This document shows positions 12,858 to 64,000 of a DNA stretch of 64,000 bases, piece after piece. The stretch comes from Alteriqipengyuania abyssalis (lineage in GTDB: Bacteria > Pseudomonadota > Alphaproteobacteria > Sphingomonadales > Sphingomonadaceae). The position numbers were made by a program, and so were the translations under genes. Within the stretch, counting starts at the first letter, position 1. Every line of letters begins with the position of its first letter. The notes below the pieces were generated by a model that searched no databases, had not been told where the DNA came from, and worked only from the letters and a program-made list of their open reading frames with translations. The DNA is taken from positions 124,001 to 188,000 of the forward strand of contig NZ_JAHWXP010000001.1 of NCBI RefSeq assembly GCF_019857185.1, in the 5' to 3' direction.

Positions 12858-13322
12858 TCACCGATAAGATGCGAAGACGCTCTGTCCGGTCGGACCAAAG
12901 GCGATGACCTCATAGGGCTGGATCCGGTTTCCGGCCTCCATGCCGGGCGATCCCAGAGGCATTCCCGGAACCGCTAGACCGGCAACGCCGTCGGGCCGCT
13001 CGCGCAAAAGTCGGGCGACGGCTTCGGCGGGCACGTGACCTTCGATGATGTATCCATCGACCTCCATCGTGTGGCACGACCACAATTCTTCCGGTACGCC
13101 GCGCGCTGTCTTGATCGCCGCCATGTCGTTGCTATCGACCGATGCCACCTTCGCGTTCATCCCATCTTCAAGATGGCCTGCCCAGTTGAGACAGCATCCA
13201 CATCCGGGGTCCCTGAACATCGTATAGGTCGCTGCCTGAGCCACGTTCGAACAGGCTGCCAGCACGAGCAAGGCCGCGCCGCTAACCGATCGCCGGAACA
13301 GGGCAGGCTTTTTCCAGATCAT
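12858..13322 (-). CDS. DUF411 periplasmic copper-binding protein
   Basis: 154 aa with an N-terminal signal (LLVLAACSNVAQA, which could be a lipobox) and the DUF411 signature FRDPGCGCCLNWAGHLE, a CxCC cluster suited to metal binding. Also typical are RGVPEELWSCHTMEVDGYIIEGHVPAEAV and VPGMPLGSPGME. DUF411/CopG-like proteins are common in copper clusters. The ATG at 13322 overlaps the methyltransferase stop by 4 bp, which decides the start. A longer open frame upstream has no support. Confidence 0.87.
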   Translation of the reverse strand: MIWKKPALFRRSVSGAALLVLAACSNVAQAATYTMFRDPGCGCCLNWAGHLEDGMNAKVASVDSNDMAAIKTARGVPEELWSCHTMEVDGYIIEGHVPAEAVARLLRERPDGVAGLAVPGMPLGSPGMEAGNRIQPYEVIAFGPTGQSVFASYR

Positions 13323-14023
13323 TGTGCAATTCCTTTCTTGTATCCGCGCCATAGCGAGATCGTCCCGGTCACCGTCGGGAACCGGTGGAGCAGGCATGGC
13401 TCGGTGAAGATTTCGGCGAACAGTTTTTCGACTTGGCCGTCGGCGCTGGGCTGCGTGTCGCTAATGCCGTCAAGCGACTGGACGGTCGCCCGGAAGAGGC
13501 TCCGCATGAGTGGGCTATCCTGCTTCATATAATCGGCGATCAAGACGGTTCCGCCTGGCACGAGCAAGCTTTCGATGGTTTCCAGGATTGCCTGCTTCTT
13601 GCGCAAGGGAACCTGGTGAAGGACGAGGCTGCTGACGATCTTGTTCGGCTGCCACCCTGCGGGCAGCTCGAGGCTTTCGAGAAAGCCATTGTGCCATTTG
13701 ACGAGATCGGCTCCCGCCCCAAACTTGCGCCGCGCAAGCGCGAGCGCCTCTTGGTCGGGTTCGACACCGATCAGACCCGCTTCCGGGCAATCCGTCATCA
13801 AGGCCTTGAGAAGTGTACCGGTTCCGCTGCCGACATCGATCACCCGGTCGCCGGGGACAAGGTGCAGCTCTTCGACAATCTTTTGTCGCCAGAGATGTTC
13901 GCGGGTGAACAGACCGAGCGCCCGGTCGTAAAGCGGCGTCAGAAAGCTCTTGCCAAGAAGAGGCGTGAATTCGCCGTGATCTTCAGGCGCGGTGATATTG
14001 TTCACGCGTTCGCTCCCATTCAT
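13319..14023 (-). CDS. Class I SAM-dependent methyltransferase
   Basis: 234 aa. Motif I VIDVGSGTGTLLKAL lies around residue 61 and the acidic end of strand 2 is GVEPDQEALALARRKF. The rest (SLVLHQVPLRKKQAILETIESLLVPGGTVLIADY) follows the UbiE/ubiquinone-type methyltransferase pattern. No Cys triad like that of ArsM is present. The substrate is unknown. It is the first gene of a two-gene unit with DUF411 and has a predicted ECF promoter 40 bp upstream, arranged back-to-back with the cnrY-like gene. Confidence 0.82.
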   Translation of the reverse strand: MNGSERVNNITAPEDHGEFTPLLGKSFLTPLYDRALGLFTREHLWRQKIVEELHLVPGDRVIDVGSGTGTLLKALMTDCPEAGLIGVEPDQEALALARRKFGAGADLVKWHNGFLESLELPAGWQPNKIVSSLVLHQVPLRKKQAILETIESLLVPGGTVLIADYMKQDSPLMRSLFRATVQSLDGISDTQPSADGQVEKLFAEIFTEPCLLHRFPTVTGTISLWRGYKKGIAQ

Positions 14024-14060
14024 CCCGGGTTCGACCCGATTCTGGCAGACCCGTCTCGAT

Positions 14061-14086
14061 TACGTATGGCGGGGGACATTCCCTCA
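14061..14086 (-). promoter_or_regulatory. Predicted ECF-sigma promoter for methyltransferase-DUF411
   Basis: On the minus strand: TGAGGGA, 15 bases, CGTA. It is preceded by a run of seven T. It is divergent from the site at 14099-14124. Confidence 0.7.
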
Positions 14087-14098
14087 AAAAAAGAAGTT

Positions 14099-14124
14099 TA
14101 AGGGATTGTGCAGGCGAGCGCGTA
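14099..14124 (+). promoter_or_regulatory. Predicted ECF-sigma promoter for the sigma-sensor trio (autoregulation)
   Basis: TAAGGGA, 15 bases, CGTA, ending 32 nt before the ATG of the cnrY-like gene. The -35 element differs by one base from the other sites. It implies that the sigma factor drives its own operon. Confidence 0.65.
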
Positions 14125-14156
14125 TAGGGCACGTGGAACCCACAGGAGTTTTTCGG

Positions 14157-14453
14157 ATGCGTGACAAACACTCTCTTGATGCGGTGCTCGGAACCCTCTC
14201 CGCCACCGCCGCTAGCGAGGTCCCCGCCGACTTTATGGATGGCGTTTGGCAGCGCGCCGGACAGCTTGGCGAAATCGCCGACCGACGCCGCCGCACGGCT
14301 CTGTTCGTCGGTCTGTTTGTCGTCGGGCTCGGGGCTGGCGCCGGAACGAGCGGTTGGCCCGGGGGGTATGGCACGTCGTCCGCGCCATTTGGCGACAGTG
14401 CGATCCTCGGCGAACAGCTGTCCCCATCGGCGCTCCTCCATGTGGAGCAATAG
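14157..14453 (+). CDS. CnrY-like single-pass anti-sigma factor
   Basis: 98 aa: a cytosolic N-terminal ~44 residues, one TM segment (TALFVGLFVVGLGAGAG) and a short periplasmic tail. Length and topology match CnrY, the small membrane anti-sigma factor of the Cupriavidus CnrYXH system, and the next two genes supply the X and H partners. Sequence similarity to CnrY was not tested. The start has a good CAGGAG 8-9 nt upstream. It should hold the ECF factor at the membrane until the sensor binds metal. Confidence 0.7.
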   Translation: MRDKHSLDAVLGTLSATAASEVPADFMDGVWQRAGQLGEIADRRRRTALFVGLFVVGLGAGAGTSGWPGGYGTSSAPFGDSAILGEQLSPSALLHVEQ

Positions 14454-14456
14454 GGT

Positions 14457-14891
14457 TTGAAGTCGACGCATATCGTTCTCGCGGTGCTTCTCGCAGCGCT
14501 CGCAGGATGCCTCGGCGCGATTGCCGCGGACCGCTGGGCCAATCACGAGGCCGGCTCCGGCCTCCACGATTTCGTGCACGACGAGCTCACCCTGACGGCC
14601 GACCAGGAGCAGCGTCTCGATGCGCTCGAGGCCCGTTTCGCTGTCGAAAGGGCACGGCTCGAAGGATCGGCGCGTGCAGCCAATGCCCGGCTCGCCCAGG
14701 CGATGGAAACCGAGCATGAGTACGGTCCCGAGGTCTCGGCCGCGATCGACGAGGTGCATGCACGCATGGGCGATCTGCAGAAAGCAACGGTGCGCCATGT
14801 CTTCGACATGCGCGAAATTCTCGAACCCGATCAGCAACGCCAGTTCGACCGCAAGGTCTCCGACGCCCTGACCCGCGACCCGCGCGACTGA
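14457..14891 (+). CDS. CnrX-like periplasmic heavy-metal sensor
   Basis: 144 aa with an N-terminal membrane anchor (HIVLAVLLAALAGCLGAIAA) and an all-helical periplasmic domain. The CnrX metal ligands are His42, His46, Glu63, His119 and Met123. Here His37, His41, Glu58, His114 and Met118 occur at exactly the same spacing, all shifted by five. So the full metal site is kept. The likely start is TTG at 14457, three bases after the previous stop; GGAG lies about 12 nt upstream. It should relay periplasmic metal to the CnrY-like anti-sigma factor. Whether it sees copper, nickel or cobalt cannot be told from sequence. Confidence 0.85.
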   Translation: MKSTHIVLAVLLAALAGCLGAIAADRWANHEAGSGLHDFVHDELTLTADQEQRLDALEARFAVERARLEGSARAANARLAQAMETEHEYGPEVSAAIDEVHARMGDLQKATVRHVFDMREILEPDQQRQFDRKVSDALTRDPRD

Positions 14892-14897
14892 AGCGCC

Positions 14898-15458
14898 ATG
14901 TCGGGGGCGGGCGACAATCCGGACGAGGCCCTTGTCTCGCAGGCAAGGGCCGGAAGCAAGCGGGCTTTCAGCAAGCTCGTCGAGCATGAAACGGGTCGGC
15001 TTCTCGCGCTCGCGACACGCATGCTTTCCTCTCCTTCTCAGGCGGAGGACGTTGTTCAGGACAGCCTCGCTTCGGTGTGGCTGACGCGCCATCGGCTCGA
15101 TCCGGACAAGCCGATCGGACCCTATCTGACAACCGTCGTCCTCAACCGCTGCCGGGACCGTTTGCGCAGGCGCAAGGTCGCGGGCTTTTTCGGACTGTCG
15201 GGCGATGACGAACTCCATTCCATCGCCGACGATTTGCCGGGTCCTGAAACGTCGGCCGTTTCCAGGGAAGAGCTCAATCGTGTCCAGGCCGAGATCGCGC
15301 GAATGCCTGTAAGGCTGCGCGAAGCGCTTGTGCTCGTCACCATCGAGGGGCGTAGCCAGGCCGAGGCGGCCGATCTTCTCGGAACGACCGAAAAGGCGAT
15401 CGAAACCCGCGTATACCGCGCGCGCCACAGGCTGAAGGAGCGCTTCGAAAAACTTTGA
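14898..15458 (+). CDS. ECF RNA polymerase sigma factor (CnrH/RpoE group)
   Basis: 186 aa with sigma region 2 (SQAEDVVQDSLASVWLTRHRL, YLTTVVLNRCRDRLRRRK) and region 4 (RMPVRLREALVLVTIEGRSQAEAADLLGTTEKAIETRVYRARHRLKERF). It directs RNA polymerase to stress promoters when freed from its anti-sigma partner. It is the third gene of the trio, 6 bp after the sensor. Its stop codon TGA forms the start of the -35 element of the promoter for copA. The sites at 12185, 14061, 14099, 15456 and 20091 are its proposed targets. Confidence 0.93.
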   Translation: MSGAGDNPDEALVSQARAGSKRAFSKLVEHETGRLLALATRMLSSPSQAEDVVQDSLASVWLTRHRLDPDKPIGPYLTTVVLNRCRDRLRRRKVAGFFGLSGDDELHSIADDLPGPETSAVSREELNRVQAEIARMPVRLREALVLVTIEGRSQAEAADLLGTTEKAIETRVYRARHRLKERFEKL

Positions 15459-15481
15459 GGGGTTGGGTGGGCGCGCGCGTA
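15456..15481 (+). promoter_or_regulatory. Predicted ECF-sigma promoter for copAB
   Basis: TGAGGGG, 15 bases, CGTA, beginning at the stop codon of the sigma gene and ending 32 nt before the copA ATG. It allows copAB to be induced separately from the sigma operon. Confidence 0.75.
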
Positions 15482-15513
15482 AGTAACGGTAAACGCCACG
15501 TCAGGAGCCCTTT

Positions 15514-17322
15514 ATGATCGCCGTCAATCGACGCAAGTTTCTCGGAGCCGGAGCAGGAGGAATGGGTCTGCTCAGCCTTGCCGGGGCGATGCCTGCCTGG
15601 GCACGCGGCGCGGACATCCTCGCAGGTAACGCCCGCAAGGGGCTGGACGAGGTATCCGGCCCCAATATCGACCTCACCGTTGCCCGATCGGCCTTCGCGA
15701 CCGGTAACAGGCGCGGGGGAGCGATCGCCGTCAATGGCACGATCCCCGGTCCGCTGCTGCGTTTGCAGGAAGGCACGACCGTCCGGCTCAATGTCCATAA
15801 CCAGCTCGAGGAAGATACCTCGATCCACTGGCACGGTCTGCTCGTGCCGTTTCAACTCGATGGAGTGCCGGGAGTAAGCTTCCCCGGCGTCAAGCCGGGA
15901 GAGACCTTCACCGCCGAATTCCCGGTTCGCCAGTCAGGCACCTATTGGTGGCACTCGCATAGCGGGCTGCAGGAACAGGCCGGGCATTACGGCGCGATCG
16001 TGGTCGATCCCGCCGGACCCGATCCGGTTCAGGCCGACCGCGAATATATCGTGGTGCTGAGCGAATTCAGCGAAATGTCGCCCCACACGATTTTCGACAA
16101 GCTCAAGAAGGGCGAGGGCTACTTCAACTACAACCAGAATACCTGGACCGACGACTACCCGCTTTCGGGTGAGGATCGCCGGATGTGGGCCAGAATGCGC
16201 ATGATGCCGACCGACATCCTCGACGTTTCGAGCGCGGCTTATACCTACCTTCTGAACGGCCATGGCCCGCTCGACAATCTGGAATACCTCTTCCGTCCAG
16301 GCGAACGCGTGCGGCTGCGCTTCATCAATGCCGGCGCCATGACCTTCTTCAATATTCGCATTCCCGGCCTGCCGATGACCATCGTTCAGGCGGACGGGCA
16401 GAACGTCGAGCCGGTTGAGGTCGACGAGTTCCAGATCGGTGTGGCCGAGACCTATGACGTCGTCGTGACGCCGGGCGCGCAACAAGCCTACACGTTGGTT
16501 GCGGAGTCGATGGACCGCTCGGGCATGGGTATTGCCACACTCGCGAGCGCACCCGGCGCTCGCGCCGCCATTCCGCCGCTGCGCGATCCGCCGCTTCTGA
16601 CCATGGCGGACATGGGCATGAGCGACATGGACCACGGCTCGTCTGGCGATGCCGGCATGTCGGGCATGGACCACGGAAGTGGCGGCGACATGGCGGGGAT
16701 GGATCATGGTTCGTCCGGCCAATCCGAGATGGCAGGCATGGCCGGCATGTCGGGCATGCAGATGCGCGACACCTCGCTTCTGCCGCCCGATGTGAAGGTC
16801 GGGCCCGGTCTCGACATGGTCTCGATGAACCCGGTCGATCGCATGGGCGATCCCGGCATCGGTCTCGCCGATGTGCCGCATCGTACGCTCGACTATCGCA
16901 AGCTGCGCGCTTTTACGCCGCACCGCGAGGGCCGCACGCCGTCCCGGCGAATGGAAATTCATCTGACCGGCAATATGGAGCGCTACATGTGGTCGTTCGA
17001 CGGCAAGAAGTTCTCCGCCGTCTCAGACGAGCCGATCCGTTTCGCCTATAACGAGCGCGTGCGCGTGAAGCTCGTCAACGACACGATGATGGCGCACCCC
17101 ATTCACTTGCACGGTCATTTCTTCGAGCTGGTCAATGGCGCGCCGGCCGATCGTCAACCGCTCAAGCACACGGTAATCCTGCAGCCGGGTGGCAGCGCGC
17201 AGTTCGACCTGACGGCGGACGAGCCCGGCGACTGGGCCTTCCACTGTCACCTTCTCTACCACATGCATGCCGGGATGTTTCAGATCGTCACGGTCGCCAA
17301 CCCCGACGGGAGCGAAGCATGA
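15514..17322 (+). CDS. copA: CopA/PcoA multicopper oxidase
   Basis: 602 aa with a Tat signal (NRRKFLGAGAGGMGLLSLAG). Copper-ligand motifs are present: SIHWHG, YWWHSHSG, HPIHLHGH and HCHLLYHMHAGM, the last carrying the type 1 Cys-His-Met set. Between cupredoxin domains 2 and 3 (residues ~365-415) is a Met/His-rich insert of MDHGSSGD-like units, as in CopA/PcoA. It should oxidise Cu(I) and bind copper in the periplasm. AGGAG lies before the ATG. The stop overlaps copB by 4 bp. It is the second multicopper oxidase of the island, of a different subfamily from the one at the left edge. Confidence 0.95.
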   Translation: MIAVNRRKFLGAGAGGMGLLSLAGAMPAWARGADILAGNARKGLDEVSGPNIDLTVARSAFATGNRRGGAIAVNGTIPGPLLRLQEGTTVRLNVHNQLEEDTSIHWHGLLVPFQLDGVPGVSFPGVKPGETFTAEFPVRQSGTYWWHSHSGLQEQAGHYGAIVVDPAGPDPVQADREYIVVLSEFSEMSPHTIFDKLKKGEGYFNYNQNTWTDDYPLSGEDRRMWARMRMMPTDILDVSSAAYTYLLNGHGPLDNLEYLFRPGERVRLRFINAGAMTFFNIRIPGLPMTIVQADGQNVEPVEVDEFQIGVAETYDVVVTPGAQQAYTLVAESMDRSGMGIATLASAPGARAAIPPLRDPPLLTMADMGMSDMDHGSSGDAGMSGMDHGSGGDMAGMDHGSSGQSEMAGMAGMSGMQMRDTSLLPPDVKVGPGLDMVSMNPVDRMGDPGIGLADVPHRTLDYRKLRAFTPHREGRTPSRRMEIHLTGNMERYMWSFDGKKFSAVSDEPIRFAYNERVRVKLVNDTMMAHPIHLHGHFFELVNGAPADRQPLKHTVILQPGGSAQFDLTADEPGDWAFHCHLLYHMHAGMFQIVTVANPDGSEA

Positions 17323-52654: not shown

Positions 52655-53773
52655 GTGCAAATAGATCGACTTATGGATGAAAAAATGTTCGAATGGCCTT
52701 GGCCGGCGGGCGCTGGCGCCGATCATATTCTAAAGCGCCAATGGGAACTCGTCGATTTGCTGTCGAGCAGGTCGCCGATCTTTCTCGACACCAATTTCTG
52801 GGTCATGGCGCGCCAAGCGGCATTCGAAGAAAGCGAAGAACCGGAAAAAATTTCTCTCCTCGGCGCGCTGAGGCTGGCGGTGGAGTCCGGAAAATTCTTC
52901 TTCCCGATTACAAGCGATCTCATCGCAGAATTCAGCAAGCAAACTCCTGAACGCCTTGAGCGAACGATGCTGCTTGTTGACCGGCTGAGTCTCGGTGTTG
53001 TGATGGTGCCGCACCACGAACGTACGGCGATCGAGATGGAAGCGTTCAACGCAAGGGCGTTTCCGGACCATCCGCCAGCTCCACGCCCTCTATGGACCTG
53101 TTACGCCTTTGCGCTTGGCTATGAGGATATGTGTCCCCCTAACGTGGAGGCAAACGACGCGCTCTTGGTTGCGCTCGCTCAAGAGGCCTGGATGGGGCAG
53201 CCGTCGATGCTCGCGAAGATGGTGCCGCCCGAGCTCTTCGCGTCTCGGTCGGAGAGTGAACGAATGGCGGCATATTTAAATGAGCAGGAAGCGCTCCATG
53301 CTCATGAGATCGACAGCCACGCCACCGCATTGCGAATTGAGATTGCGGGTGCGGCGAGCATGCTTACGGGCATCGCTGCCCGCGAATATCGGCGCATGGC
53401 GGCGGCAGCCGGACACGACCGTGAGGCAGGCGACATAGAAGACAGCATTAGGGTTGGCAGACGCGTCACTGGCATGCTCGCTCAGGCGCTAGAGAAGGAC
53501 GAACATCGGCGCGCCTTCGGCAGCCTCTACGTACCCGCAATGCTGCACGCGGCTGTGCGATCGGAAAGGAAACGCAAAATCAAACCTAACGACATCTTCG
53601 ACTTTCGCCACGCGGCCGCGGCGCTTCCCTACTGCCGCGCCTTCATGACAGACGGCCCGCTGCGTAGTCTGATCACGAGCGGCCATGTCCGTCTCGACCG
53701 GCTCTACGGTTGCGAGGTCGTGGCGACGCCCGCCGAGGCGATAGAGCTAATCGGCCGCCTGGCCCTCAGCTGA
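52655..53773 (+). CDS. PIN-domain-containing protein
   Basis: 372 aa from a GTG with GAGG 9 nt upstream; an ATG at 52673 is an alternative. The PIN fold shows Asp45-x-Asn47 in PIFLDTNFWVMAR, an acidic residue in SDLIAEFSKQ (~88) and the C-terminal block NDIFDFRHAAAALPYCRAFMTDGPLRSLI with Asp ~314 and ~332. A long helical insertion separates the halves, so it is much larger than VapC toxins (~130 aa) and has no antitoxin gene next to it. Probable RNase of a defence or stress system. GNAT gene follows. Confidence 0.7.
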   Translation: MQIDRLMDEKMFEWPWPAGAGADHILKRQWELVDLLSSRSPIFLDTNFWVMARQAAFEESEEPEKISLLGALRLAVESGKFFFPITSDLIAEFSKQTPERLERTMLLVDRLSLGVVMVPHHERTAIEMEAFNARAFPDHPPAPRPLWTCYAFALGYEDMCPPNVEANDALLVALAQEAWMGQPSMLAKMVPPELFASRSESERMAAYLNEQEALHAHEIDSHATALRIEIAGAASMLTGIAAREYRRMAAAAGHDREAGDIEDSIRVGRRVTGMLAQALEKDEHRRAFGSLYVPAMLHAAVRSERKRKIKPNDIFDFRHAAAALPYCRAFMTDGPLRSLITSGHVRLDRLYGCEVVATPAEAIELIGRLALS

Positions 53774-54321: not shown

Positions 54322-54825
54322 TCACGACAGAAAGGTCAGCGCGCCGCGATAGAGCTGGTCGAGTTCTGCATCGGTAAAAATGCGTTGTGGCTGGTAGTCG
54401 AGCTGATCGTTGCGGCGTGCGGCGTCGGGTGTGGCGATATAAAGCCTTTGAGTGGGTTTCATTCGCGGCGCTATGTGGCTTGCGAGCAATTTTGGCGCTC
54501 CTGGTGAATAGGCGGTCGTCACTAGCGAGACATCGGCGATATATTCGCCAAACCGAACCCAAGCGTGCCCGTCCCAGTCGAGGTCGGTCTTAAGCCTGCC
54601 ACCCACTGGAGCGTAGCCGAAGACCGGAGAGCCTGTGATTAACAAGGCGCCGCCAACCAGTGTAGCTGAAGTATGGCCGAGATGGCGTAGCCTGCCAGTA
54701 TAAAGCGCGCTCATCATCACACAAGCACCCGCCTTTCGCGGAAATGCACGCAGTACATCGTGGCCGACCGACACAAGAGCGTCGAATTGTTCGTCACTCA
54801 AATCGGGTGGGCTTTCCGTCGGCAT
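54322..54825 (-). CDS. Transglutaminase-like/papain-fold small protein
   Basis: 167 aa. A possible catalytic triad, Cys35 in KAGACVMMSALYTG, His87 in WDGHAWVRF and Asp98 in YIADVS, in the order and spacing of transglutaminase-core cysteine peptidases. No signal peptide. It overlaps the stop of the 535-aa gene by one base and so is translationally coupled to it. It may process or modify a partner in this cluster. Catalysis is a guess from the triad. Confidence 0.6.
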   Translation of the reverse strand: MPTESPPDLSDEQFDALVSVGHDVLRAFPRKAGACVMMSALYTGRLRHLGHTSATLVGGALLITGSPVFGYAPVGGRLKTDLDWDGHAWVRFGEYIADVSLVTTAYSPGAPKLLASHIAPRMKPTQRLYIATPDAARRNDQLDYQPQRIFTDAELDQLYRGALTFLS

Positions 54826-56432
54826 CAGGTCAGCGTAGCCGTGATCCGGTTGAGTGTCGCAACGAAGCTCTGGAGCAATTGACGACCCTGCATGACGGGA
54901 GGCGAGCTATCGTCGACTGCAGCGCGCGCCTTGCCGCTCGCGATCTTGCTTGATCCGATGTGCGCATCGGCGAGACGGAGGTCGTATATGCCGAAGAGTG
55001 GTGCCATCATTGTTCTTGCGGCGGCGTTGGAGCCGTGATGCGCGGCAAGCTTCTCAAGCGCTTTCAGGGACCCCGGTTTCTTGTCGGTCTTCGGCAGGGC
55101 AATTGCGGCAATGATCGCGTCGATGTCGATGCGCTCGATGAATAGCCGGGTTAGTTCTTTCGACAACTCGAGCAATCCGTCCGGCTCGGCGGCAACAAAT
55201 CGGTGCGCCCGCCGGAGCAGCCCCTGAAGGCAATCGTGCTCACGCAGCAGCCGAGCGCCGTAGCGCGAGGAAAATGCAACATCGAGCGCGTCCATTGCTT
55301 GAGGCAGTCCCATCTCCGGCGCGATGGTAGCGGCGGGATTGACTTCCATCTGCGCGGCGAAGAGTTCGCGCGAAACGCCACCGTCCGGCGTGACGTTATG
55401 TGCACTCCACAATCGCTGTTCCCATGGTTGCAAGCTCCCGATGTCCTTGGCGAAAACGGTGATCAGTCCAATGTCATTGATTCCAAAATGCACACCATGG
55501 TTGGTCGCGCCGAGCGAACCAGTTTCTTCGGTCGCCCAGCGAAGTGTTGCACTGCGATGCCTAAGCAATGCCGAGGCGATCGTCGGCTCGAAATACAACC
55601 ACGTCATCGCCCCCGCCAATTGATTGGCCGCCGCGCGCGTTCCGTCATTTTCGAGCGCGAAAGTGGTGGTATGCGGATCGGCGTCGCCGCGGACGCGCGT
55701 GCTAAGCGTTCCTGGTTCGACCCATTCAGTCCGCCAGAGGGCACCCCTCGTCCAATAGTGATCAGTTGGATCGGGATAATCGGCCGCGACGGTCATGGCT
55801 TCGCGCCGATCTCGGTCTTGCTCATCGGCGAGGCGATCAGCGGGCCAGTCGTAAGGCGGCTTGTTTATGGTGACGGCAATTCGCTCGCGATAGCTCGAGC
55901 AATACAGCGCCATGCCGCGTGCGGCGAGATAGTCGCGCAGGAATTCCGCTTTGATCTCGATGAGAAATGGCTCGCCATCGTCGTTGCGCTTGAGCCTGAC
56001 GACCTCGATCCATCCTTCTTCGGGGCGAAACCAGCTATCCCCTTCTTGAATCAGCGCAAGCGCGACGCACAAATCCGGGTGCAGGTGCCAGATATTGCGA
56101 TTGCCCTGTTCAAGGTGCTGGTCGATCACGAGATTGATGCCGAGCGTCTTGTTCAAGCTTCGGAAGACGTCTGCGGCACTATAGCCCCAACGCTCAACAC
56201 CCGAGCGGTGCGGATTCACATCGAGATCTCCGGTCCACCCGAGCGTCTCGGCGGCCGCACGGTGTCCGTCTTCGACCGCTGCGGTAGCGATCCCGATCCA
56301 TTCCTCGAGACGATAAACATCGGGCTGGTCGGTTTCGAAAGAAGCGTCGGTGATCTTTCGCAACGGAATCCAGGACTTGCTCCGCAGCGGCAGAACGTCT
56401 CGCAGTTCAAAGTACGATTGAGGTATGGGCAC
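54825..56432 (-). CDS. Uncharacterised 535-aa protein, defence-like cluster
   Basis: No family recognised. The N-terminal ~300 residues are mixed alpha/beta with many Trp. A middle part reads TNHGVHFGINDIGLITVFAKDIGSLQPWEQRLWSAHNVTPDGGVSRELFAAQMEVNP, and the C-terminal ~160 residues are helical (LTRLFIERIDIDAIIAAIALP, LKALEKLAAHHGSNAAARTMMAPLFGIYDLR). The RLADAHIG stretch near the end is like the final helix of HEPN-type proteins, only suggestively. It sits in a minus-strand row with the transglutaminase-like and 201-aa genes. Confidence 0.6.
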   Translation of the reverse strand: MPIPQSYFELRDVLPLRSKSWIPLRKITDASFETDQPDVYRLEEWIGIATAAVEDGHRAAAETLGWTGDLDVNPHRSGVERWGYSAADVFRSLNKTLGINLVIDQHLEQGNRNIWHLHPDLCVALALIQEGDSWFRPEEGWIEVVRLKRNDDGEPFLIEIKAEFLRDYLAARGMALYCSSYRERIAVTINKPPYDWPADRLADEQDRDRREAMTVAADYPDPTDHYWTRGALWRTEWVEPGTLSTRVRGDADPHTTTFALENDGTRAAANQLAGAMTWLYFEPTIASALLRHRSATLRWATEETGSLGATNHGVHFGINDIGLITVFAKDIGSLQPWEQRLWSAHNVTPDGGVSRELFAAQMEVNPAATIAPEMGLPQAMDALDVAFSSRYGARLLREHDCLQGLLRRAHRFVAAEPDGLLELSKELTRLFIERIDIDAIIAAIALPKTDKKPGSLKALEKLAAHHGSNAAARTMMAPLFGIYDLRLADAHIGSSKIASGKARAAVDDSSPPVMQGRQLLQSFVATLNRITATLT

Positions 56433-57175: not shown

Positions 57176-58248
57176 TCAGGCCGGAAGCGATCGTAGCTGC
57201 CGCTCGACACAATGATACACCGGGGGCGCCCATTGATATCCCCATCGCTGCGCCTGCACCTTGCGAAAGGCCGCTGCGACGGCACCGCTGTCGATTCCGG
57301 GCGACAGGGCCTCGATACGGCCGCGTAGCTCGTCGCGCGCGGCTTTCGCCGGCTTGTCGTCAGAGCGGTTGCTGATCGTGCCAAGCGACATTCCGATGCC
57401 CAGCGCGTTGCCTTCGACGACGTCCAGAAATGTCGTCGCGGCACGCACGCGAGTCGCGATCCGCTTGGCATGGTCCTCGACGTGGTCCCAGGATTTGCGG
57501 TCCTTTGACTTCTTGTTACAGCCGGTACGGATCTTGGCGAGGCTCTGTGCGATCACTGCCCTGTCTGCCTCGTCGAGCAGCTGAAACACGCGCCGCTCGA
57601 CGATGCGCAGAATGACCTCGAGCTGGTCGGTATCTTCCTGTGCCATCCAGCCGAATTCGCCGTAGAGCAGCTCGACGTAGTCCCACAGAAAAGGCCCGTA
57701 ATAACCGAGCTCAAGCGATGCGAGCAGGCGTTCGCGATTGACCGTCGCGGGGGGGGAAGATGGATCTGAGGATAGAAATTCCGCATGAGCTGGAGGTTAA
57801 GGGCAAGCCCCTCGACGATTTCGTCCCAGAAGATCATCGCCACCGCGAACTTGTCGGCCGCCACGCGTTTCTCCGACAGGAGGCGTACTTCCTGCTGAAT
57901 CTTCGCGTCGTGATCGGCTGAAGTTGCGATAAAAAGGGTATTGAGCTTGCCTTTGTAGTGTTCGGCATTGGCGATTTCGCTTGCGACGAGGGCGAGCTTG
58001 GGCGCCTGCGCGAAGTTCTTGCACTGGATCGCGACCGGGCGGCCGATCTCGTCAGCCCCGTAAATGTCGACCCCTGACTGCTTCTGCCCCGGGCGGCCGT
58101 TTTTCTGGAGATTGGGCGATCGCCAGCGCTGCGCCAAGGCCGCGAGGGTCATGCTCTCGAACTCCTGGAAGTCGTCGGGGCGGGGCAGAGTCATCGAAGA
58201 GATTGTCGGCATTGGGATCCTATAGCGACGGATCCGCAGCTTTTTCAT
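57176..58248 (-). pseudogene. Mrr-like restriction endonuclease gene, split by a frameshift at a G8 tract
   Basis: The frame from 58248 encodes FESMTLAALAQRW...GVDIYGADEIGRPVAIQCKNF, a PD-(D/E)xK fold with Asp and Q-x-K as in Mrr. It stops making sense after HLPPP at a run of eight G (plus strand, 57749-57756). The continuation (NRERLLASLELGYYGPFLWDYVELLYGEFGW, then to SLPA) lies in the next frame and ends at 57176. One extra base in the run, or removal of two, would restore a ~357-aa protein. It may be broken, phase-variable or a sequencing error. Start at 58248; MPTISSM at 58212 is an alternative. Confidence 0.72.
57749..57756. repeat. Homopolymer tract of eight G inside the Mrr-like gene
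   Basis: The tract is exactly where the two reading frames must join. Such tracts are prone to slippage. Confidence 0.8.
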
Positions 58249-58270: not shown

Positions 58271-59047
58271 ATGAGACGTTCTATGCTTCAGCTCACCAAT
58301 CGCGACTACGCACATTTCTATTTCGAGGACTTTGATCTCGATGCGCAGCTGATCGCTATCCGCGGCGCACTCGCTGCCGCGCGATCCGCGGCGAGCCAGG
58401 AAACCGACGAAATCGAAGCGCTTGCCAAACGCGCAAATGATATCGGCAGCGATCACCTTGTCGGCATGTGGACCGACGAAGTCCATGCCTCCGTCTATCA
58501 CGATGCAGCGCGGAGTGCCGCCGCTGTCGGCATGCTCGCACCCTTCATCGAGAATCTCTTCGTCGGTATCTTTCGGGGCATCGGCAAGATGAGTGATGAC
58601 GTGTTGGGGCACGATTCAGCATCTGAACGCTCGGTCCGAGCAGTCGCCGGGTTTTGGGATCCGCACTTCGCCTATGCAAAGAGGGAGATCCGCGACGATC
58701 TCGTCACGGGCATTCTTCAACTCTCGGCGGTATCGAAACTCGAACCCCATCTTCCCGCTGATTTGAAGCCTGTGCTCGAGGCTCTCTTTGGTTACCGCAA
58801 CAAGGTTCTCCATAACGGGTTTGAATGGCCGATCGACGAGCGTGAGTCGTTCGCCAATCGAGTCAAAACTTGGCCTGCTGGCTGGTTCGAGTCTGCGACG
58901 AGCAACGGACGGCCTTGGGTTTGGTATTTGTCGGACCCCTTCATCGAACGGGTCGTGGAACTTATCGACGAGGTGCTGGATGCCGCCGGACAGCACGTGC
59001 GGCTCCACTTTGCACCAGAGATCGGTTCGAAAGAGAATGACGCTTGA
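58271..59047 (+). CDS. HEPN-like 258-aa protein
   Basis: Helical throughout. ALFGYRNKVLHNGFEWP carries the HEPN-type R-N-x-x-x-H motif, typical of ribonucleases in abortive defence. The N-terminal part (ADLTNRDYAHFYFEDFDLDAQL-like region and ARSAAAVGMLAPFIENLFVGIFRGIG) is a helical bundle common in such proteins. Its start is 22 bp from the start of the Mrr-like gene on the other strand, so the two share a promoter region. An ATG at 58283 is an alternative start. Confidence 0.65.
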   Translation: MRRSMLQLTNRDYAHFYFEDFDLDAQLIAIRGALAAARSAASQETDEIEALAKRANDIGSDHLVGMWTDEVHASVYHDAARSAAAVGMLAPFIENLFVGIFRGIGKMSDDVLGHDSASERSVRAVAGFWDPHFAYAKREIRDDLVTGILQLSAVSKLEPHLPADLKPVLEALFGYRNKVLHNGFEWPIDERESFANRVKTWPAGWFESATSNGRPWVWYLSDPFIERVVELIDEVLDAAGQHVRLHFAPEIGSKENDA

Positions 59048-59153: not shown

Positions 59154-61067
59154 CTAATCGGGCGTGTCGACCTCATGGCCAATTTGCGTGTCATTCTGGT
59201 CCGCCCTTAGCTGGATATCGAATTTCAAGTCCTCGTTGCGGAGCAGTGTAAGGCGACTGCACCTTGCGGCATTTGCAGGCCAATCCACAGGCGCATCAAG
59301 CTCGGGGGCCCGATCGACAAGGGCGTCGCGAAAGGCTTCAATCCAGCTGCTGGCCGGCATGTCGGGGCGAACAATTGTGACAGCGTCGGCAAGTAGCAGC
59401 GAAACGCACCCGGCTTCGCCCTCGATCGAGAGGGTGGTCAAGACGCCTTCGGCTCGCCAGCTGATCGAAAGCGCGATTCGTTCAAGTAGACCGGTGTCGA
59501 GATCATCGGATATTGCTCTTGCAAGCGGTTCGGCGACAGCGATCCATTCCGTTTCGCTCGGTGGGTCACCAGGGAGAAGAATTCGCGCAAGGTTGGCTCG
59601 CGTGCTCCTTGCGGCAATCCATGAGGTGCTGCTGTCCACCCATTGACGCATCAGGGCTCCTACTTCGCCTTGAGCGACTTCGGCTACTTGCACTGGCCTG
59701 CCATCCAGCTCGATAGTTTGATCGGCGACCACTTGCGTCTGAACTGTCGAGAGCGGGGACGCTTTTTCAAGACAAAGGAAAGCGCCAAGCGCAGGTAGAC
59801 TCCTTTGTTTATGGCGACCCGGTGGCGTGTACGCTTCGGCGAGGTCCTCCTCGGGCGCACCAAGGTACTCTGGGATCAGACGGTTGCCACGATACCAGTC
59901 TGTGAGAACGCGTTTCCACATTGAGACTGGCAGCGCACCATCCAGTCGGAACAGTTTGGTGTAGTCGGAATGTTTGCCGGCACGGTCGATCCTGCGCTCA
60001 ATCCGCTCCAGGTAGGCCTCGCTCGGATAGGCGCGGATAGCGCCGTCGAAGTGGGCTAGGTCACTTTTGGCTAGGTCATATTCTGCATGCGCATAGCGGC
60101 ACCCGTACATCCCATCGGGTAGTCCCGGGCTCTCATCGTCGATCAGCTCCTCAATCTCGAACGTGCGAATTTCGGAGAGGAGGCCGGGCGTTGAACGAGT
60201 TTCGGGGTCTTTCCACCAGATCTGAGTCTTGTCGATGCGCGAGTAGTGGCGATCGCCGTCATTGCTCTTGTGCTCTGCCACGCCTGCCGGAATAGAAGCG
60301 ATGTCGTCATCGTATTTGGGACCGTGCCAATATTCGAGTTCAATCCGCGAGTGCGAGCTCTCGGGCAACCCAATGACGTCCGGATCCAAGCGCAGGCGGG
60401 CAGTCATGCCTTCCAACGCGGCGGCATCAGAGAAACTTCGCAGCACATACGCGTTGAGGCTGTTGCGGAGCGATAAGCTGCGTCGAAAGTAGCGATGCGC
60501 GAACAGCAATATGTCGCGTTCGGGCTCGTGAAAAACTCCCGGCTGTACCTCGCGTGTCCGTTCCCGAAGATAGTTGAAGTTGACCAAGCCGTCCTTGTCG
60601 ACATGCTCGCTGCCGAGCGCAAAGAATTCGGGGAACATTGCGGACGCAAGGCCGGGCTCGATCGCGCCTGCGGCCTCGCCGTGCCAGAGCCGCATTGCCG
60701 AGGTTGCATGATTCGCCACCCTGGCTTTGATGCCATCAGCGAAGGGTTCGATCTGGCGGGCCTGGGACCAATTCGCAAAGCCTTGGATTAGCGCGCCGAT
60801 CCTTTCGTGATCTTCCTCTGTTTCGGGCAGAAACACACGACCGAGTTGGCGCGCCATGTCCCGGGATAAATAGATGCCGCGTGGCTCGCTCCAACCGACT
60901 GGTCGGCACAGGTCGTGCGCCAGATTAGCGGGCATTCCATACGGGATATTCGACGCGATTGCGGCAGCGAGCGGGGTTTCCATCGACTCTACCAACGTCG
61001 CCAGCGGCAACAACATGTTTTGCCGGTTGACGCCGTCGGTGACGAAAACAGCGACATCGGTCTTCAT
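59154..61067 (-). CDS. Uncharacterised 637-aa protein (partner of the large right-edge gene)
   Basis: No family recognised. The N-terminus (MKTDVAVFVTDGVNRQNMLLPLATLVESM) is a possible strand-turn-helix; middle regions mention SHSRIELEYWHGPKYDDDIA, and the C-terminal ~200 residues are helical and end in FDIQLRADQNDTQIG. No Walker, nuclease or membrane motif is visible. It follows the large gene by 30 bp on the same strand and is probably co-transcribed. Together they look like two parts of one system. Confidence 0.6.
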   Translation of the reverse strand: MKTDVAVFVTDGVNRQNMLLPLATLVESMETPLAAAIASNIPYGMPANLAHDLCRPVGWSEPRGIYLSRDMARQLGRVFLPETEEDHERIGALIQGFANWSQARQIEPFADGIKARVANHATSAMRLWHGEAAGAIEPGLASAMFPEFFALGSEHVDKDGLVNFNYLRERTREVQPGVFHEPERDILLFAHRYFRRSLSLRNSLNAYVLRSFSDAAALEGMTARLRLDPDVIGLPESSHSRIELEYWHGPKYDDDIASIPAGVAEHKSNDGDRHYSRIDKTQIWWKDPETRSTPGLLSEIRTFEIEELIDDESPGLPDGMYGCRYAHAEYDLAKSDLAHFDGAIRAYPSEAYLERIERRIDRAGKHSDYTKLFRLDGALPVSMWKRVLTDWYRGNRLIPEYLGAPEEDLAEAYTPPGRHKQRSLPALGAFLCLEKASPLSTVQTQVVADQTIELDGRPVQVAEVAQGEVGALMRQWVDSSTSWIAARSTRANLARILLPGDPPSETEWIAVAEPLARAISDDLDTGLLERIALSISWRAEGVLTTLSIEGEAGCVSLLLADAVTIVRPDMPASSWIEAFRDALVDRAPELDAPVDWPANAARCSRLTLLRNEDLKFDIQLRADQNDTQIGHEVDTPD

Positions 61068-61097
61068 TTTACTCCCTCTACGAACATCGGAAATGGG

Positions 61098-64000
61098 TCA
61101 CCGCTTCAGTCTGACCAAGTCCTGTTGGAGATGCGCAGCGCCCTTGATACCAAGTTCAATCAGAAGGTCTGCCGCCCTGATCACAATCTCCCTATTCTTT
61201 CCCACGACCTCATGTTGTTGGACCAACTTGCGCAGCAAGAGGACTAGTAGCTCGCCGTTCGAATTTCGGTGCCAGAAGTCACCGTCCGACTTGCGCACCT
61301 GCAAAACGCGCTCGATCCAAGCCAAACCTGGCTGAGGCAGCAGCTGGGCCGAGCGGCGCTCAAGCATCGACAGCATAGCGGTGAAGGCGGTCCTTTCAGT
61401 GGCAAACGTTTCGGCTGCGCGCTGAATAGAGGGAAGTAGCGCAGGAAGGTTCGGCCAATCGTCATCGATCACACTGATGAGCCCTTGATGCGGAACACTG
61501 AGGAACGCCGAGATCGCCATTCCGCGATCGTGCTGGCGTGCGTCTTCCGGCGTGAAGGCCCAACCCGGCCGTGCGATGGCCCAGTCTATCAACACGGTCC
61601 ACTTCTCGAGCGTGTCGGCATCGATAGGTGATTTGTCGATCAGGATATTGAGCATGAAACGCTGCAGAGTGCCGTCGACAAGTTCTGCCGCCGCCCGGGA
61701 TTCGGCAGCGTCGACACGTGCTATCAGTAGCGCGCGCAACTCGTCAGGTGAGATATAAGTAATGAGGTCGCCCAGCCATCGGTATAGTGCGAACAGCCAC
61801 TCATATGGCGTGTCGCCACGATTCCGTTTCTCGTCGAGAGACACGAGCGCCCAGTCGATCAGCGATGCCGCATGGTCGATCATAGCACCTCGCGTCGTCG
61901 AGCCCATGAGTGGCCCCACGGGAATTTGCATCGCGTTCTCGTGGAAGTCCGAACGGTAATATCCATCGCCGCGGCGCGTTCCGGCGGTTGAGGGTGCCGG
62001 GTGCGCGCTCGGCATGGTTCCATTCGCCATCATCTGCTCAGCCTCGTCGGCCAGGGCCGACTGCTCCTGCGCTTCGGCTGGCGACCAATGCAGGCTGCGC
62101 CCAGTGGCAGCCGTGCGCGCTGCCCGCTGTGTAGCGAGGCAGAATAACCTCCAGAGCATGTCCGATGCACAATCGGATAGAAGCGATGCTGACTTGTACA
62201 CGGCTTCCACAACTCCCTCGATTGGATCGACAGCGAGTTGCAGAAGCGCGGCTTTCCACTCGTGGCGCGCGGGGACCCGGCGAACGAGTGCAATGTAGGC
62301 GTGGGCGGCCATGACTGGTGGGTGGCCGTGAACCTTGGAGCCGCGGTAGGACAATCCGTCCTCCTGCTCGACCATGGTGGCTGCGCGCTGAATAACATTC
62401 ACTACAGCTTCTTCGACTTCAGGCCAGAGTTCATCGGCGTGGCGAGCCAGGACAGCAGCAGTTCCCGCGACACCAGATTGCGCGTACCTACGCTTCATAT
62501 CGGCCAGAGGTGCCACTTGATCGAGCAGGTCGCTCTGGTCGAGCGCGATCATCTCCTCGAAGGCTGCTTCAAGGGTGAACTCTTCGCCCGGCTGGCCGCT
62601 TTCGATGGCCTTCTGCGCCCAGAGGTCAAGCTTAAGAACACGATTGAGACTTGCCTGTTCTTCCAGAAACGCCTGGTGTTTCTCGTCGTCGACATATGGT
62701 GGGCGCATCGAGATGTACGTCTTACCATCCACCACCTGGGTCACGAGGTTGGCAGGATCAGCCTGTTGGCGCAGCGGCTCGAATGCGGCGCGGGTGGCGT
62801 TTGCCTCATCGGGATCGTCGCGCTGCTCTGCGGTGTTGTACGGCACCCGTTCAAGGAAAGTCGCAAACCGCTCGCTGTAAGCCGCCTTCACCTCATCGCT
62901 GGCAATACCTGCAAACAAGACGGACAGGTCCCGAACCGTATGCTTTCTATGCGGGAGTCGATTGAGTTCTCGCAAGGCGCCCGCGAGTACGGCCCACTTG
63001 CCCCAATGGGCGATTTCGTTCGAGAACGATCCCATGTCCCCGACTTGGCGTCCTATGTCCCACTGCCAGAGGGCTGGGTGCGTTCCGATCTCGAGTGCGG
63101 CCGGACTTGTCGCCGCAGCGCGGAGGTCGGCCAGGCAAAGTCCGGCGGCTATTCCGAGCACCGCGTTACATCTATTGCCGCGGGCAATGCGCAAACAGAG
63201 CTCGTCGAGGGTATCTCCTGCCGCAAGGCGTTCGTGAGCCCACGCATCGAGCGCTAGCAGCGCAGTATCGAGCATGTGGATATGCGATCCGCCTCGAAAC
63301 CAGCGATAAGTTCCCTCATCGCCCCAGTATTCGTTTTCACCATCGCCAAGGTCGAGCACAATGGGGATGGGTGTGTGCTCTGGTCCGGTCTGCCTTCGCC
63401 GCCACGCCTCCATCGCGTGGTTGCAGAGGTCAGTGATCAATCCCAGGCCGATAGCGGAGTGCGTTCGAAGCAGATGCAAAAAGGGCGGTCGAGCCGGTGA
63501 GGCTGGATAGAAGTCGTGGTCGTCATCGAAACCTAACGCTTCGGAGCGTTCGATCATGCCTGAACGACGACGCTCGCGTGGCCGATCCAGATCGAGAAGA
63601 TATGCTCGCTTCAGAAAGGCTGTGACCTCAGCTGGAAGCACGCTGGCAAGGACGACGCTTAATTCGAGGATCTGTTTGCGCACTCGCCCGACCCTCTGGT
63701 CGGAGATACTCGCGAGATAGTTCCGCACAATGTCGGGCGCCCCGCCGACGCATCTCAACAAGAGGCAGCGTGCTTCGTCACTGTAATCCGGTGTTCCCCA
63801 CAACGCCGGACGGCGGCGTTCATCTGTGCTGTCGGTATCGCCAAGCTTTTCCGCAGCCCAAGCGGCGGCTTCCTGAAGCCCGGCATATCGTCCAAACTCG
63901 CCTGGGATTGACGACGCCCAAGTGCTCAAAAAGGTGAAAAGCTCCTTGTCTAGAGATGCAGGCATCACGCCCAGACGAGGAATCAGCCAAGCAATCAAAC
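61098..64000 (-). CDS. Large helical-repeat protein, N-terminus beyond the right edge
   Basis: At least 966 residues are visible. The frame stays open to the edge, so the true start lies to the right. The sequence is a long series of helices (for example FLSTWASSIPGEFGRYAGLQEAAAWAAEKLG, LLLRCVGGAPDIVRNYLASISDQ, LIDWALVSLDEKRNRGDTPYEWLFALYRWLGDLI), which suggests an alpha-solenoid as in the sensor part of STAND ATPases. No ATPase motif is visible in this part; if it is a STAND protein, the NTPase would be off the window. No family can be named. Confidence 0.6.
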   Translation of the reverse strand, partial: LIAWLIPRLGVMPASLDKELFTFLSTWASSIPGEFGRYAGLQEAAAWAAEKLGDTDSTDERRRPALWGTPDYSDEARCLLLRCVGGAPDIVRNYLASISDQRVGRVRKQILELSVVLASVLPAEVTAFLKRAYLLDLDRPRERRRSGMIERSEALGFDDDHDFYPASPARPPFLHLLRTHSAIGLGLITDLCNHAMEAWRRRQTGPEHTPIPIVLDLGDGENEYWGDEGTYRWFRGGSHIHMLDTALLALDAWAHERLAAGDTLDELCLRIARGNRCNAVLGIAAGLCLADLRAAATSPAALEIGTHPALWQWDIGRQVGDMGSFSNEIAHWGKWAVLAGALRELNRLPHRKHTVRDLSVLFAGIASDEVKAAYSERFATFLERVPYNTAEQRDDPDEANATRAAFEPLRQQADPANLVTQVVDGKTYISMRPPYVDDEKHQAFLEEQASLNRVLKLDLWAQKAIESGQPGEEFTLEAAFEEMIALDQSDLLDQVAPLADMKRRYAQSGVAGTAAVLARHADELWPEVEEAVVNVIQRAATMVEQEDGLSYRGSKVHGHPPVMAAHAYIALVRRVPARHEWKAALLQLAVDPIEGVVEAVYKSASLLSDCASDMLWRLFCLATQRAARTAATGRSLHWSPAEAQEQSALADEAEQMMANGTMPSAHPAPSTAGTRRGDGYYRSDFHENAMQIPVGPLMGSTTRGAMIDHAASLIDWALVSLDEKRNRGDTPYEWLFALYRWLGDLITYISPDELRALLIARVDAAESRAAAELVDGTLQRFMLNILIDKSPIDADTLEKWTVLIDWAIARPGWAFTPEDARQHDRGMAISAFLSVPHQGLISVIDDDWPNLPALLPSIQRAAETFATERTAFTAMLSMLERRSAQLLPQPGLAWIERVLQVRKSDGDFWHRNSNGELLVLLLRKLVQQHEVVGKNREIVIRAADLLIELGIKGAAHLQQDLVRLKR

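Follow-up and report, generated by a model that had tools for sequence, protein, structure and literature searches.

An Avs4-related STAND sensor with a changed effector motif and a neighbouring gene of an undescribed family in an alphaproteobacterial conjugative element

For the STAND proteins Avs1-Avs4, which act via nuclease effectors, the phage component that is recognised is the terminase large subunit, the portal or some other protein (PMC12931631). Here we describe two large genes at the right-hand edge of a 64,000-nt window of Alteriqipengyuania abyssalis DNA, the larger of which runs off that edge. As the window corresponds to positions 124001-188000 of contig NZ_JAHWXP010000001.1, the missing N-terminus could be read from the flanking DNA: in window-equivalent coordinates, the complete frame spans 61098-66155 on the minus strand and encodes 1685 aa from a TTG start. 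The first-pass annotation, made from the window, had reported the pair as same-strand genes 30 bp apart, which the open reading frames 59154-61067 and 61098-64000, both on the minus strand, confirm. The features are as follows.

57176-58248, minus strand: Mrr-like endonuclease gene, an island neighbour, interrupted in this genome by the loss of 1 nt from a C-run
58271-59047, plus strand: gene for a 258-aa protein of no known family, an island neighbour convergent with the partner gene
59154-61067, minus strand: 637-aa partner gene with an ATG start, a long-form member of a protein family without a name
59853-60668, minus strand: partner core (residues 134-405), common to long and short forms and carrying the family's invariant residues
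60894-60917, minus strand: long-form N-terminal motif HDxxRPxG (partner residues 51-58), with positions invariant in 7 diverse long forms
61068-61097, minus strand: intergenic gap of 30 bp, in which a Shine-Dalgarno-like GAGGGAG stands just 5' of the ATG of the 637-aa gene
61098-64000, minus strand: in-window part of the larger gene (~966 aa, residues ~720-1685 of the STAND protein), frame open at the window edge
63465-63518, minus strand: motif HDFYPASPARPPFLHLL (STAND residues ~880-897), common to relatives and the Avs4 structure 8dgf (HHDYYPESPYQTPIYWLL)

The 1685-aa protein is composed of a nuclease-like N-terminus (aa 1-~200), an NTPase (aa ~286-640) and a helical sensor (aa ~640-1685). 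Walker A (GQHGTGKS, aa ~308-317) and Walker B (LFIDGADKMD) are both intact, and G310, G313, G315, K316, D377, G378 and D380 are invariant in profile A3, which was built from eight STAND homologues. Searching the PDB with this profile returned Avs4 (8dgf) at 9.2e-30 over positions 264-1201 (8dgf residues 180-1105), with Avs2 as the next Avs match at only 0.03. Avs4 was likewise the match in PADLOC (1.6e-17, aa 286-1192) and NCBIfam (6.7e-28), while Pfam gave only sub-threshold P-loop matches (NACHT 0.0023, AAA_16 0.004). The likeness to Avs4 extends over the NTPase and into the helical sensor, of which it covers the first part, including the HDxxEEW and YPxSP motifs (here HDIFEEW and FYPASP), and further comprises an N-terminal nuclease-type effector and a mobile defence context. 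Three differences stand against it: the NCBIfam score of 96.5 bits is far below the curated equivalog cut-off of 1500 bits (NF041815), 8dgf gives no alignment for the final ~480 aa of the sensor, and the lysine of the effector's QxK motif is missing. Judged by its homologous NTPase and sensor and its intact Walker motifs, the larger gene is a complete STAND sensor related to Avs4 at the superfamily level, rather than an Avs4 equivalog; given a score so far under the cut-off, its ligand and behaviour may differ from those of Avs4. Since Avs4 homology begins only at aa ~264-286, its N-terminal effector is not of the Avs4 type.

That the larger gene would prove to be a STAND-type sensor had been proposed from its helical design, and the P-loop NTPase and Avs4 homology bear this out; to the right of position 64000 we read a PD-(D/E)xK-like N-terminus and the STAND NTPase, and no housekeeping domain. 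The accompanying remark that the visible part holds no recognisable motif is true by eye, but those 966 aa do match the PADLOC Avs4 model at 7.7e-6. PADLOC additionally returned the candidate system PDC-M54A (1.1e-15), which is likewise a large STAND protein; this match is partial, being confined to aa 10-326, the overall score is low, and the 637-aa neighbour matches no PADLOC model. When the PDC-M54A model (PDLC04701) was run against the source genome and its sibling, it gave no match, the controls being likewise silent, and we found no paper naming PDC-M54A in the literature searched.

Both genes are real and under purifying selection. The sibling genome G1003 carries the succession IetA-IetS-STAND-partner and its flanks at ~95%; because it keeps both frames at 95% identity and with the same 30-bp gap, and because dN/dS between the two genomes is 0.15 for the STAND gene and 0.32 for the partner, the two frames are not a product of chance. 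Scanned for promoters and terminators, the operon showed no more such sites than shuffled sequence. Immediately upstream of the STAND gene, in the same orientation, are clear homologues of IetA and IetS (window-equivalent 66474-69921; PADLOC, NCBIfam); IetAS, a defence system made up of an ATPase and a subtilase, is a separate neighbouring system and not part of the pair. Further genes upstream of the STAND gene encode an S24 repressor-like protein, an SNase and TraG, and on the other side of the pair are the Mrr-like gene and a MobF relaxase gene. The element is of the conjugative type, and its island holds F-type conjugation genes; among pattern-recognition STAND proteins, the Avs4 branch is hereby extended to alphaproteobacterial conjugative elements. 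The Mrr-like gene is intact in G1003 (357 aa), and the one base missing here may be a true frameshift or else an artefact of sequencing. Also within the island are genes for a 372-aa protein adjoining the MobF relaxase gene (52655-53773; PIN-like start FLDTNFWV by eye, no Pfam match) and a 535-aa protein of no known family (54825-56432). Across genomes, the STAND gene is sporadic, being present in 7 of 299 genomes of an order-wide sample and 12 of 399 of a family-wide one, and relatives are plasmid-borne, lie in viral contigs or adjoin integrases or recombinases. Together with IetAS next door, these locations agree with the earlier description of the region as a defence-like island.

The 637-aa protein has no match in Pfam, NCBIfam, PADLOC or PHROGs, and its family, a rare one, is undescribed in all four. 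By profile scan of 84,980 species genomes we found relatives in Erythrobacter colymbi (56%), Methylobacterium sp. Leaf112 (46%) and Flavobacterium zhairuonense (32%), a fragment in Sphingomonas sp. PR090111-T3T-6A, and three further long forms in the Flavobacterium group. Long forms measure 620-693 aa. Short forms (~345 aa) occur in Vibrio, Stutzerimonas, Rhodoferax, Vogesella, Ignavibacteria, Lentisphaera and others, as well as on Pseudomonas aeruginosa plasmids; short-form patterns were found in six viral contigs, and long-form patterns in none of those searched. The family thus spans Alpha-, Beta- and Gammaproteobacteria, Bacteroidota, Ignavibacteria and Lentisphaera, in defence islands, in prophage-like contigs and beside nuclease genes. 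Eighteen sequences share ~24 invariant core residues, among them E243, W247, G249, W285, E307, Y325, H327, H339, D341, G342, A343, R355, K371, G377, N395, E400 and Y401, a conservation pattern that looks enzymatic. AlphaFold models of the window protein (pLDDT 59) and of a short-form relative (pLDDT 80) retrieved nothing below E 0.001 from the PDB or BFVD, and hence no recognised fold. Weak matches to Rai1, Cas4 and MGME1 in a first search had suggested a nuclease fold and were gone with the better model. A resemblance of the N-terminus to phage prohead protease was considered and rejected: there was no match in PHROGs or Pfam, and the long-form N-termini displayed the HD..RP.G motif only, with no conserved serine seen. 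A 72-residue match to a 460-aa protein in another genome (G245) was judged spurious. In one locus, a short-form gene (L033:9665-10726) lies directly behind an HsdM-like gene of a type I restriction system, as recognised by eye.

Taken together, the locus probably encodes an Avs4-related STAND anti-phage sensor with a modified effector, accompanied by an optional accessory gene. We apply the Avs mechanism to this protein because of homology only: the ligand of the sensor would be some conserved phage protein, most plausibly, as for Avs4, one of the portal-type packaging proteins; protomers carrying ATP would assemble, and their N-terminal domains, in which the QxK lysine is replaced by threonine and a clade-specific Lys42 is present, would act on DNA and so stop infection. 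The 30-bp gap and the ribosome-binding-like site within it suggest that the 637-aa gene would be translated downstream off the same transcript. Rather than the required half of a fixed pair, the gene would be an optional, separately mobile accessory or a second defence gene, a role that we infer from gene neighbourhood only.

Of the earlier proposal of an undescribed two-gene unit, the undescribed family therefore stands, but the obligate unit does not. Recurrence of the pair, by which the proposal was to be judged, was confined to the window lineage, namely the window and G1003, and as these two share one island, the pair there counts as one event. A full-length STAND relative (64%) lies beside an integrase in genome G144, which has no partner-family gene anywhere; conversely, three genomes with long-form partners contain no such STAND gene, although the same query finds it in the order- and family-wide samples. 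Among all loci fetched, both families were otherwise found together only in Stutzerimonas stutzeri 28a22, ~4 kb apart and on opposite strands. A less probable alternative is that two independent defence genes came to share a transcript by chance during island assembly, with the 637-aa gene acting as a solo defence or anti-defence gene unlinked to the STAND protein. Most partner-family members indeed have no STAND gene beside them (Methylobacterium, Erythrobacter, Vibrio, Rhodoferax, prophage-like contigs), and the genes that follow other STAND relatives are unrelated, encoding a NERD/SEC-C protein, the PADLOC candidate PDC-S39 or a 1554-aa protein, or being convergent. Yet the tight 30-bp spacing is kept in both genomes, and partner-family genes turn up next to genes of nuclease type in at least two further settings, Flavobacterium relatives among them. 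In F. zhairuonense, a partner-family gene is located 51 bp upstream of a different STAND gene (NB-ARC/TPR; QxK-type N-terminus by eye), in a locus adjoining UvrD-helicase and OLD-nuclease genes that resemble Gabija. Elsewhere, one long-form and one short-form gene lie 84 and 37 bp, respectively, downstream of genes for two 633-aa proteins (L082:7104-9005 and L084:6870-8771) that are 77% identical and contain, by eye, a NERD/PD-(D/E)xK-like motif, ELDILG...IEVKAG. These few loci are suggestive of a link between the partner family and nuclease effectors. For the SEC-C/NERD neighbour in Sphingomonas parapaucimobilis, a relation to these 633-aa NERD-like genes was rejected as too weak (E 5e-5, 18% identity).

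With respect to the effector of the favoured sensor, we aligned 20 N-termini from plasmids, genomes and viral contigs. Q44, D53, D54 and Q72 are invariant in all 20, and E14 in all 19 that reach that position. Outside the window clade, position 74, the lysine of QxK, is Lys in each of the 17 relatives; within the clade, it is Thr in all three proteins (the STAND proteins of the window, G1003 and G144), so that K74T is not a sequencing error. Relatives carry the pattern E14 ... DD(54) ... Q72-x-K74, which they share with Cap4/DUF4297-type and Mrr-type effectors and which we take to be Cap4/DUF4297-like; the window clade differs in having Q-x-T, and a Pfam HMM search of the STAND protein returned no DUF4297 or Mrr match. 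Measured against the PD-(D/E)xK signature of acidic residues plus (D/E/Q)-x-K, the clade retains E14, D53, D54 and Q72 but has Thr for K74. Conversely, Lys42 occurs only in the window clade, relatives having Ala, Arg, Glu, Gln or Ser there, and it sits two residues ahead of the invariant Gln44.

The loss of the lysine could mean a dead nuclease, in which case the STAND protein would be a regulator, a decoy or a non-nuclease effector. In favour of this is the change to Thr in all three clade members with the rest of the site kept, but several observations make it unlikely. Relative to the G144 protein, the N-terminus (70.5% identity) and NTPase (70.4%) are the best conserved parts, compared with 56.3% for aa 1201-1685, which together with the dN/dS of 0.15 against G1003 argues that the effector domain is not simply decaying. 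Lys42, close to Gln44, offers a candidate replacement, and the canonical lysine is absent from some PD-(D/E)xK enzymes, such as BamHI and BglII. From the alignment, catalysis in the clade effector appears to be either relocated or altered, relocation meaning that position 42 may have taken over as the catalytic lysine. A clade that has lost this lysine while keeping every other active-site residue represents a testable effector change inside an immune sensor, and it is this loss, along with the unnamed partner family, that gives the locus its follow-up value.

Were the nuclease dead through K74T, the two genes might instead form an obligate system, with the STAND protein sensing phage and the 637-aa protein serving as trans-acting effector or essential cofactor. 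That two genomes keep both genes at 95% with the 30-bp gap between them would fit, as would the substitution itself, the enzyme-like invariants of the partner and the F. zhairuonense arrangement. We nevertheless consider an obligate system quite improbable: G144 has the same K74T STAND protein at full length and lacks the partner, partner relatives reside in genomes without a window-type STAND gene, and the two pair-bearing genomes amount to a single event. Slightly more doubtful still is a looser version, in which a STAND protein without its catalytic lysine would use the 637-aa enzyme family as a trans-acting effector, this family being a portable effector or activator working with several unrelated nuclease or nuclease-STAND proteins. 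That the pair is housekeeping or conjugation-related is very improbable, for although it is embedded between the MobF relaxase and TraG genes and one partner relative lies in an ordinary-looking chromosomal stretch of Methylobacterium, the sporadic STAND distribution (12/399 family genomes), the Avs4 homology, the IetAS neighbour and the plasmid and prophage homologues all speak against it.

Two arrangements among the STAND relatives may be recorded. In Azospirillum oryzae, the relative (L004:12308-16972) is followed 117 bp downstream by the gene for the 1554-aa protein, which has a sub-threshold P-loop match and, by eye, a nuclease-like N-terminus, with IS66 elements flanking the locus. Another genome (G1000) carries two large STAND genes of the window type head to head, ~110 bp apart (L071:8080-12882 on the minus strand and 12992-16803 on the plus strand).
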